Part shown: piece by piece, positions 2,870 through 9,990 of the stretch
Position numbering within the stretch: the first letter of the stretch is position 1
Layout: each line of letters opens with the position of its first letter
Source of the DNA: a candidate division WWE3 bacterium GW2011_GWC2_41_23
GTDB taxonomy: Bacteria > Patescibacteriota > WWE3 > UBA101185 > UBA10185
Assembly (NCBI GenBank): GCA_000996895.1
Contig: LCBB01000012.1
Coordinates: 1-48,094 of the forward strand
DNA length: 48,094 nucleotides
Direction of reading: 5' to 3'
Position numbers and translations under genes: made by a program
Notes under the pieces: model-generated
What the model saw: the letters and a program-made list of their open reading frames with translations, nothing else
The model's database searches: none
Told to the model about the DNA's origin: nothing

Positions 2870-3749
2870 CAATTGGTCAATTTTCATAGCGAATATAAAA
2901 AAGGAAAAGTTGCTGAGTGTGTCGAATATTTTAATAATGACCGTTACGTTTGTTTTGCTTGGGTTGTTGATAAATATTGTTGTATTTTCACAAACCGCGC
3001 TTAGGTATCTGGAAGATCAGGCGCAGGTAACGGTTTTTTTCAAAGACGATTTTACCGAAGCTAAGATTGGTGAACTTAAAGACAATCTATCCAAAGATAA
3101 GAGGGTTTCTGCTTTGGTTTATGTTTCAAAAGAAGACGCGCTTAGAATATTCAGGGAAATAAACAAAGACGAGCCTGTTTTGCTTGAGTCCGTTTCAGCA
3201 AGCATACTGCCGGCCAGTTTGGAAGTCCGGGCAGGTAATATTTCCAATTTGAAACCTTTGGCTGAAGAGCTGAAGATAATCGATGGGGTGGAAGAAGTGA
3301 GATACTTTGAGGATGTAGTGTCTCGTTTCAAATTCTGGAGCACGGTCGTCTATATTGTAGGTACCCTGCTGGTTTTGACATTCCTGGTGATTTCTTACTC
3401 GGTGATAATAGCTGCTTTAAGAACAACAATAAATTCCAGGGGTGTTGAGTTTGAGATAATGAAAATCGTCGGAGCCTCGGACGACTATGTTAAGGTTCCG
3501 CTTGTACATCACGGGGTCTTTTTCGGACTTTTTTCGTCATCTATAGCTTCGGTAATAATGATTTTGCTGGGAGTAGGAATCACGCTTACCAATGTTTTTC
3601 CCAAAGGTTTGGGCGTGGCCTTTCTACCGGGTGTTTTTATAGCGCCGTGGGTTTTTTCAATAATCCTTACCCTCATCTTGCTTCTGTCAGGTTTCCTTTT
3701 GGGTTACCTCGGGAGCTCGGCTGCAATAAAGAAATACCTGAATTATTAA
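2862..3749 (+). CDS. ftsX: Cell-division permease FtsX
   Basis: Four-TM topology with large first extracellular loop ('QAQVTVFFKDDFTEAKIGELKDNL...VSKEDALRIF'); adjacent to ftsE. Confidence 0.92.
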   Translation: MPNNWSIFIANIKKEKLLSVSNILIMTVTFVLLGLLINIVVFSQTALRYLEDQAQVTVFFKDDFTEAKIGELKDNLSKDKRVSALVYVSKEDALRIFREINKDEPVLLESVSASILPASLEVRAGNISNLKPLAEELKIIDGVEEVRYFEDVVSRFKFWSTVVYIVGTLLVLTFLVISYSVIIAALRTTINSRGVEFEIMKIVGASDDYVKVPLVHHGVFFGLFSSSIASVIMILLGVGITLTNVFPKGLGVAFLPGVFIAPWVFSIILTLILLLSGFLLGYLGSSAAIKKYLNY

Positions 3750-3753
3750 AGTT

Positions 3754-5007
3754 ATGTTAAGAAAAAATGCGTTGTTATGGGTTTTACCCTTAATATTTTT
3801 TCTGGTCCCATTTATTTATGTGTTGGGTCAGACTACGTCGAATCCGGACGATGTTGAGGAATTAGAAGAAAAGATCGAAAAATATGAAAAGAAGATAAAC
3901 GAACTTCAGGGCCGCGCGAGTACTCTGGCAAACGAAATTGAATATATGAATAGCCAGATTGGTTTGACTGAGCTTAAAATTCAAAATTCTGTAGCAAAAA
4001 TAGCAAAAACTGAGAAAGAGATTCAGAAATTGGCCGTTGACATTGAAGATTTAAAATTACGAATTCAGAAATTGGAAAAATCCATCGATTACCAAAAAGA
4101 TGTATTGTCGGCAAGGATACGGGAAAGATACAAATCCAAGGACGAAAACACGATGGTTGTCTTGTTCGGCTCAGCCACGTTGGACACCATGGTTCAAAAA
4201 GTAGAGTACCTCAAGGCAATGGAAAGGTACGACAACAAGTTGCTGATTGAAATGGGTGACACCAAGACCAGATACGATATGCAGAAGAACCTGTTCGAGC
4301 AGAAAAAAGAAGAAGAGGAGAAACTCAAGGCCCAGCTACTGAATGAAAAGGCATCGCTGGATATTTATAAAGGGCAGTTGGACGCTCAAAAAGAAGATAA
4401 AAAACGTTTGCTTGATTCCACACAGAACGATGAAGCTAAATATCAGGGTCTTTTGGAAGATGCTTTGCGTGAGCTACGACAAATTCAGGGTGCGGCCAGC
4501 GTAGTTATCAGGTCGGGAAATGCAGTGGATGTTGAGAAAGACGAAGTAATCGGTACCATGGGTAGCAGCGGAAATTCGACAGGCCCTCATCTGCATTTCG
4601 GTGTGTATAAGTATAGTGTCGACGATTTTCAGGACCACGAAAGCTGGAGCTGGTATTACAGCAACTATGTTAATCCCCTTGATAAATTAGAGCCAAAAAC
4701 CGTGTATTGGGGAACCGGCTGCAGTAACGACCCAAGCGGTAGTGTAAAATCCGGGAAAGGTGACTGGAACTGGCCCATGGCAAGTATTACGGTCACACAA
4801 AACTATGGAAGCAAGACTTGCTACAACTGGATGTACGGTGGTAAACCGCACCCAGCATTAGATCTCGTTGGTAAAGGAGACATTTCGGTGCGTGCCGTAG
4901 AAGACGGAGAAGCTTACTTCTGCCGTAACTGCCTCGGGGACGGTGGTAATGGAGTTTTCATTTTCCACGAGGATGATTATATGACTGTGTATTGGCACCT
5001 GAGATAA
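3754..5007 (+). CDS. EnvC-like coiled-coil protein with M23 peptidase domain in permuted motif order
   Basis: N-terminal signal/TM and long coiled coil; 'GTMGSSGNSTGPHLHFGV...NPLDKL' (aa ~266-312) precedes 'PMASITVTQNYG...HPALDL...GNGVFIFHEDDYMTVYWHL' (aa ~341-416). Confidence 0.85.
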   Translation: MLRKNALLWVLPLIFFLVPFIYVLGQTTSNPDDVEELEEKIEKYEKKINELQGRASTLANEIEYMNSQIGLTELKIQNSVAKIAKTEKEIQKLAVDIEDLKLRIQKLEKSIDYQKDVLSARIRERYKSKDENTMVVLFGSATLDTMVQKVEYLKAMERYDNKLLIEMGDTKTRYDMQKNLFEQKKEEEEKLKAQLLNEKASLDIYKGQLDAQKEDKKRLLDSTQNDEAKYQGLLEDALRELRQIQGAASVVIRSGNAVDVEKDEVIGTMGSSGNSTGPHLHFGVYKYSVDDFQDHESWSWYYSNYVNPLDKLEPKTVYWGTGCSNDPSGSVKSGKGDWNWPMASITVTQNYGSKTCYNWMYGGKPHPALDLVGKGDISVRAVEDGEAYFCRNCLGDGGNGVFIFHEDDYMTVYWHLR

Positions 5008-8769: not shown

Positions 8770-9507
8770 ATGGAAAATTCTAAAAATTCGAACATTATTC
8801 AGTTAGTACTTGTTGCGGCATTGGTTGGAGCAGCTTTTTACATCGGTAGTTTGTCCTCTAAAGTTGGAAGGTTAGAAAAGGTAGATGCGAATTCCGGAAC
8901 TCCTTCACAGGGAGCGGAGGCACCAGCTACTTTTGATTCTGTAGCATTAGCATCATCTTTGGGTTTAGACTCAAAGGCCTTCAAGACCTGTGTCGACAAC
9001 CGTGATACAAAAGCGAGAGTTGAGGAAGAAGAGAAAGGCGGACAGGTTGCCGGTGTACAAGGAACTCCCGGTATAATTATGTTAGATACCAAGACCGGAA
9101 ATTCCGCAATCATACCAGGAGCAGTTGATTCCAATACGATGCAGCTTTTTCTTGATAACGTGTTAGCCGGGAAAGACACTACACTTGGTACTCAAACGAT
9201 CAAACTTGGAAAAATCGAGGAACTGATAGCTCTGAGCGACGCAGATTATGTTAGGGGTGACAAATCATCCCGAGTATTGTTATTTGAGTATTCGGATTAT
9301 GACTGTCCCTTTTGCAAGAGAGTTCACCCCACATTGCAGAAGTTGTTAGACGATAACGCCGGTAAGGTAGCCTGGATTTACAGACAATTCCCGTTAGATC
9401 AATTACACCCGACCGCCAGATCCAAATCCGAAGCTGCGCTTTGTGCAGGTAAGCTTGGTGGGAATGATGCCTTCTGGGCATTTTCCGACGCATTGGCAAA
9501 ACTCTAA
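8770..9507 (+). CDS. Membrane-anchored DsbA-like thioredoxin-fold protein in permuted motif order
   Basis: SD aggagg; TM; 'LASSLGLDSKAFKTCV...GVQGTPGIIM...IPGA' (DsbA C-terminal half, aa ~58-134) precedes 'VLLFEYSDYDCPFCKRVHPTLQ...FWAFSDALAKL' (catalytic half, aa ~169-245). Confidence 0.88.
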   Translation: MENSKNSNIIQLVLVAALVGAAFYIGSLSSKVGRLEKVDANSGTPSQGAEAPATFDSVALASSLGLDSKAFKTCVDNRDTKARVEEEEKGGQVAGVQGTPGIIMLDTKTGNSAIIPGAVDSNTMQLFLDNVLAGKDTTLGTQTIKLGKIEELIALSDADYVRGDKSSRVLLFEYSDYDCPFCKRVHPTLQKLLDDNAGKVAWIYRQFPLDQLHPTARSKSEAALCAGKLGGNDAFWAFSDALAKL

Positions 9508-9520
9508 GATATCTACATTT

Positions 9521-9540
9521 GCGGGGGTGAAAACCCCCGC
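9521..9540 (+). promoter_or_regulatory. Perfect 8-bp hairpin with GAAA tetraloop between the dsbA-like gene and VKOR
   Basis: GCGGGGGT-GAAA-ACCCCCGC, 10 nt before the VKOR ATG; no U-tract. Confidence 0.75.
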
Positions 9541-9549
9541 CCGTTAATA

Positions 9550-9990
9550 ATGACTACATCGAAATATTTATTTACCGCAAAAATACTAGCCGCGATCGGG
9601 ATAGGGCTAGCTTTGTATTTATATGTGAGTTTTATTACCCAACCTGTGTATAGCTTGTGTACGATAAGTGACACTATAAATTGCGATGCGGTTATAAGCG
9701 GGGAAGTGTCGAGAACCTTAGGAATACCTACATCCCTGTATGGGCTGATAGGATATATAGTAATCTTGGTGGCAGCTTTTCTTGGCAGGAAAAAATTAAT
9801 GCTCGGGGTCGCTATTTTCGGAACTTTATTTTGTTTGCGAATAACTTTCATCGAGATTTTTCAGATTGGAGTAATCTGCCCCGTGTGTTTGTTGTGTCAG
9901 GTTGATATGCTGGCTTTACTTACTGTATCCTACTTTGCCTTGAAGAAGAAAAATGCAGCAATCCAAACTTCTGAAATAGAGTCTGTATAG
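9550..9990 (+). CDS. Vitamin K epoxide reductase (VKOR) family protein
   Basis: 'LCTISDTINCDAVISGEVSRTLGIPTSLYGLIGY' and 'CPVCLLC'; multi-TM. Confidence 0.92.
   Translation: MTTSKYLFTAKILAAIGIGLALYLYVSFITQPVYSLCTISDTINCDAVISGEVSRTLGIPTSLYGLIGYIVILVAAFLGRKKLMLGVAIFGTLFCLRITFIEIFQIGVICPVCLLCQVDMLALLTVSYFALKKKNAAIQTSEIESV

Follow-up and report, generated by a model that had tools for sequence, protein, structure and literature searches.

A naturally occurring, circularly permuted DsbA-like protein encoded beside VKOR in a WWE3 bacterium, and the apparent recurrence of its permutation in Patescibacteria

Results

The locus and its genes

The window analysed in this study is a stretch of 48,094 nucleotides (contig LCBB01000012.1) from the candidate division WWE3 bacterium GW2011_GWC2_41_23. 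Its forward strand, on which all features described below are located, contains at positions 8770-9507 a coding sequence for a permuted DsbA-like protein of 245 amino acids (ATG at 8770, stop codon at 9505-9507). Inspection of the protein sequence by eye revealed an N-terminal hydrophobic segment (residues 9-27; 8794-8850), which is predicted to serve as a membrane anchor; the same sort of segment precedes the canonical-order paralogues. The anchor is followed, up to approximately residue 52, by a low-complexity linker with low pLDDT in both AlphaFold2 models obtained for this protein.

The first part of the domain is the cis-Pro half (residues 53-135; 8926-9174), delimited by its match to positions 125-187 of the Pfam DSBA profile and by the elements of the structural model. 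It comprises helices alpha4-alpha6, two strands and a C-terminal helix (modelled helices at residues 57-63, 68-76 and 81-93, strands at 101-106 and 112-116, and a helix at 121-133), and corresponds to the C-terminal half of canonical DsbA. This half carries a non-catalytic cysteine in alpha5 (Cys74; 8989-8991) and Gly98-Thr99-Pro100 (9061-9069), which at the sequence level is the motif of the cis-Pro loop. A second linker (residues 136-158; 9175-9243) leads from the old C-terminus to the old N-terminus; across all permuted proteins its counterpart is 12-38 residues long and poorly conserved. The CxxC half (residues 159-245; 9244-9504), delimited by positions 4-85 of the Pfam Thioredoxin_4 profile and by the model elements, corresponds to the N-terminal half of canonical DsbA and consists of a beta strand, the CPFC helix, another beta strand and helices alpha2-alpha3 (strands at residues 169-175 and 200-206, helices at 180-195 and 216-244). 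The catalytic motif CPFC (Cys179 and Cys182; 9304-9315) is placed by the model at the start of helix 180-195, i.e. with the CxxC at a helix N-terminus. The partner of Cys74 in a second cysteine pair is Cys225 in alpha2 (9442-9444).

The downstream gene (9550-9990) starts 42 nt past the stop codon and encodes a membrane protein of the VKOR family (146 aa; Pfam VKOR, E 7e-19), the predicted reoxidation partner of the permuted protein; the two genes are thus direct neighbours, as the original prediction had stated. Between them lies a strong hairpin (GCGGGGGU GAAA ACCCCCGC; window positions 9521-9540), with a folding energy of -18.5 kcal/mol for a 56-nt region (z -3.8) and no T-run. It is conserved in the genus, with G-U pairs kept in locus L004, and is possibly an mRNA element situated between both genes.

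Two complete halves in inverted order

The Pfam profiles matched the protein in two separate, inverted stretches, both scoring above the curated cut-offs. Residues 57-125 were recognised by the C-terminal part of the DSBA profile (positions 125-187 of 191; E 6.6e-13), and residues 158-240 by the N-terminal part of Thioredoxin_4 (positions 4-85 of 165; E 1e-17). The same two non-collinear stretches were obtained with phmmer against PDB sequences, on the entries 4n30, 3gyk and 6mhh. The protein is therefore not a canonical DsbA, in which the CxxC half precedes the cis-Pro half, and its inverted chain order places it among circularly permuted variants: its halves are complete, the old termini are joined, the new ones lie elsewhere, and the whole is predicted to form one fold. 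Almost no part of the DsbA domain is absent from the open reading frame.

The original prediction had read the open reading frame as anchor, cis-Pro half and CPFC half, in a clean permutation rather than a truncation. Both the coordinates of this layout and the inversion of the halves were borne out, the anchor being a predicted one. The permuted order is kept in three further congeneric WWE3 species (loci L002-L004) at 79-89% identity, which takes it far beyond chance, and one of the four congeneric genomes with the gene is a complete chromosome (CP006914, RAAC2_WWE3_1). The gene is under strong purifying selection, with a whole-gene dN/dS of 0.04-0.10 for all congener pairs (approximate values, the synonymous sites being near saturation).

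The local order of halves revealed by Pfam would look the same if the gene were a fragment of a longer, tandem DsbA-DsbA protein, left by truncation or mis-assembly. The gene, however, has the same ends in four species, including that with the complete chromosome, which speaks against both truncation and mis-assembly. Moreover, no assembly break was seen, its start, stop and downstream gene are intact and its dN/dS is low, no further DsbA half was found upstream or downstream of 8770-9507, and tandem forms with three or four halves (CNC, NCNC) were absent among the collected permuted and canonical proteins. We consequently rejected this explanation, whose probability is negligible.

Predicted structure

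Two AlphaFold2 models were built. The first, from six permuted sequences only, reached a mean pLDDT of 68.9; in the second, canonical half-proteins were added as separate unpaired rows and the mean pLDDT was 85.7, with values of 93-98 for the ten-residue blocks between residues 61 and 245. The second model is one compact DsbA-like domain, i.e. a thioredoxin fold with an inserted helical domain, and it indicates, as had been anticipated, that the two halves complete a single fold. Its best match in the PDB was 1UN2, the engineered E. coli permutant DsbA(Q100T99), with E 2.2e-4 over 207 columns spanning the whole domain (TM 0.55 of target and rmsd 5.6 A, a moderate fit); the lower-confidence first model likewise ranked 1UN2 first (E 0.026). 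Natural DsbA structures, by comparison, aligned with the second model over about 90 columns, approximately one half. In a search that depends on sequence order, a circular permutant is expected to show just this pattern, a full match to 1UN2 and a one-half match to ordinary DsbAs. DsbA2 and BdbD are among the closest relatives of solved structure that were found. The predicted DsbA fold of the permuted protein is well supported.

Linkers of 12-38 residues would also allow domain swapping, in which each active site of a dimer or oligomer would combine the cis-Pro half of one chain with the CxxC half of another. We regard this as quite improbable, since the monomer model is confident throughout and DsbA(Q100T99), the protein in 1UN2, reportedly preserves the global fold (this being the title of the work of Manjasetty et al. 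from 2004).

1UN2 has the order of halves of the WWE3 protein. It differs in being laboratory-made, whereas the WWE3 protein is natural, probably membrane-anchored, only 14% identical to it and equipped with a second cysteine pair.

The break point and the second cysteine pair

The break falls within the helical insert in every permuted protein, usually in the loop between alpha3 and alpha4. In most of them the chain ends shortly past the alpha3 helix (FWxFxDxxx) and the domain starts at the alpha4 helix (LAxxLGLD). By our own count on the E. coli sequence, we take the common break to be equivalent to Thr99/Gln100 of mature E. coli DsbA, the site of the engineered DsbA(Q100T99), and the break in 1UN2 (LFEGVQKT/QTIRSASD) presumably lies in the same alpha3/alpha4 loop as the natural one. 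Three proteins (L108, L136 and L137) are broken one helix later, with the LxxxAxxxGL helix placed at the C-terminus.

The CP[FY]C motif, the GTP motif and both additional cysteines are present in 34 of 34 permuted proteins. Among 69 canonical proteins, 61 have both of these cysteines, eight have neither and none has only one. This all-or-none co-occurrence, together with alignment via the canonical relatives, identified Cys74 as the partner of Cys225; in these relatives the pair aligns with two cysteines of Wolbachia alpha-DsbA1. The latter is reported to have a structural disulfide within its helical domain (PMC3853704), and M. tuberculosis DsbA, whose partner is VKOR, has an alpha2-alpha5 disulfide, Cys140-Cys192 (PMC3792642, PMC3853704). 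By analogy, Cys74 (alpha5) and Cys225 (alpha2) probably form a structural disulfide, which would staple the helices beside the new termini.

Distribution in Patescibacteria

Profiles of each half were run on all fetched loci to sort the proteins by the order of their halves. The collected set comprises at least 34 distinct permuted (cis-Pro first) and 71 canonical-order proteins; the former come from at least 17 family-level groups of Patescibacteria, as sampled, plus Colwellbacteria. Within Patescibacteria the permuted form is thus spread over many groups and has apparently emerged repeatedly; by the initial scan it appeared confined to this phylum. In the genome of one congener (G001), canonical paralogues are found alongside the permuted protein. 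The canonical DsbA/BdbD-like proteins of Patescibacteria (e.g. L049-L055 and the G001 paralogue) resemble the permuted ones in their predicted anchor, active-site motifs and second cysteine pair, and in identities that reach about 60% for the CxxC half and about 40% for the cis-Pro half; they differ in having their halves in the usual order.

Several individual cases were also recorded. Genome G386 contains a second permuted DsbA-like gene (C5:118585-119277, minus strand), with inverted Thioredoxin_4 matches and an unusually long middle segment of about 106 residues. In locus L123 (G258:C1) a permuted gene (3989-4783, minus strand) lies beside a canonical one on the same strand (3226-3894), followed by VKOR. 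The DsbA of L016 (QIGN01000136.1), a contig labelled Hyphomicrobiales, groups with Patescibacteria in the tree described below, and the contig is probably mis-binned.

Partners and function

The source genome (837 kb, 96.7% complete) has no PF13462 or PF01323 match other than the permuted protein, which is thus the only DsbA found in it. A single VKOR was detected, adjoining the permuted gene, and no DsbB was found in this genome. The presence of VKOR and its genetic linkage, as in VKOR-dependent DsbA pathways, hold within the window's genus. The active-site motifs, the putative anchor and the neighbouring VKOR, in a genome where neither a second DsbA nor DsbB was found, lead us to infer a tethered thiol oxidase which would be recharged by VKOR.

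Proteins with this fold may also act mainly as isomerases, reductases or holdases instead of net oxidases, and CPFC dipeptides are found in several Dsb types. We consider such a role unlikely here, because the protein is the sole DsbA type found in the genome and lies beside the sole VKOR, which fits an oxidase pathway; the relatedness to DsbA2 and BdbD points in the same direction.

A survey of related genomes had been suggested for the same order of halves next to VKOR. The order recurred widely, as described above, but the adjacency did not extend beyond the window's genus: it was limited to genomes G000-G003, while in G258 VKOR is near, with the canonical DsbA between. The genomes that encode the other permuted proteins have VKOR at another site, have DsbB, or yielded neither of the two (VKOR was searched for with Pfam, a profile made from the window's own VKOR being too narrow for distant VKORs). 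A general linkage of permuted proteins with VKOR is therefore unsupported, and the permutation is not tied to this partner. Given the lack of a consistent partner, we favour a permutation that was nearly neutral over one that brought a new, special role.

Number of origins

A tree was calculated for 103 proteins, whose halves had been rearranged to canonical order (168 columns; its bootstrap values were unsettled). In the alignment of the halves, trimmed cis-Pro halves replaced the full-length ones, the last helix of which was misplaced. The tree contains 15 changes of order, and its well-supported branches force at least four; trees of the single halves gave 19 and 15 changes. Grouping all 34 permuted proteins into one clade was rejected under the model used (lnL -291, AU p 1.6e-52). 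A grouping of the window clade and the f4 clade, which belong to one class, was also rejected, at a cost of 95 log units (p 2.6e-5; groups picked after seeing the tree). Within the window's own family, monophyly of the permuted proteins was not rejected (p 0.22), and these may share one origin.

One ancient permutation could in principle lie behind all permuted proteins, in which case weak resolution, horizontal transfer or gene conversion would account for their scatter in the tree. The shortness of the alignment and the many open forks of the tree leave some room for this explanation, as does the monophyly that stands within the window's family. It is nevertheless contradicted by both rejected groupings and by the minimum of four changes, as well as by the two break positions, one helix apart, which argue for more than one permutation event; we give a single origin only a small chance. 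Several independent origins of the permutation among related bacteria therefore seem to be the better reading, with the caveat that horizontal transfer is likely. The two halves often have different canonical proteins as their closest relatives, but at identities insufficient for a decision on hybrid descent from a pair of diverged paralogues.

Discussion

We interpret the gene at 8770-9507 as encoding a DsbA-like thiol:disulfide oxidase that is tethered to the membrane, circularly permuted by nature, folded as one domain and reoxidised by VKOR, with a permutation of repeated origin, and we place the probability of this reading at roughly 0.88. In the mechanism that we propose, a flexible linker would join the old termini, the new ones being placed between alpha3 and alpha4 of the helical insert, and the two halves would assemble into one DsbA domain (a thioredoxin core with a helical cap), in which, as in ordinary DsbA, the CPFC active site would face the Thr-cis-Pro loop. 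Outside the membrane, the permuted DsbA would oxidise cysteines in exported proteins; the adjacent VKOR would reoxidise it in turn, with electrons passing to quinone. The permutation itself probably originated by duplication followed by partial deletion, and probably more than once in Patescibacteria.

Several known systems resemble this protein in part. M. tuberculosis DsbA (Rv2969c) and Wolbachia alpha-DsbA1 likewise have the DsbA fold and a structural disulfide located among its helices (PMC3792642, PMC3853704), and Rv2969c partners VKOR (PMC3792642), but both have the canonical order and low sequence identity to the WWE3 protein. Engineered DsbA permutants have been described by Hennecke et al. 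1999 and Manjasetty et al. 2004 (as cited in PMC3281007 and PMC2213659). In the same pathway, VKOR has been proposed to be a circular permutant of DsbB, arisen via gene duplication and deletion (PMC4555120); this precedent concerns a membrane quinone reductase and not a thioredoxin-fold oxidase. No report of a natural DsbA permutant was found in the searchable open-access literature. Profile annotation labels such proteins DsbA, which masks the permutation.

It is fairly probable that the DsbA of Patescibacteria constitutes a natural hotspot of circular permutation, in which the loop of the helical insert, known to be cuttable artificially, was cut several times independently, perhaps by virtue of a pre-existing alpha2-alpha5 disulfide staple, with the permuted form becoming the sole DsbA in some lineages. 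To our knowledge, few well-studied enzymes have natural circular permutants, and a permutation that seems to recur is rarer still. Evolution appears here to have arrived repeatedly at a permutation that had been engineered in the laboratory in E. coli DsbA, and the proteins collected offer a natural test of which features render a loop cuttable, such as nearby termini, a disulfide staple and modular membrane anchors. Since the permuted protein is the sole DsbA found in some lineages, oxidative folding in an ultra-small cell probably depends on it entirely.
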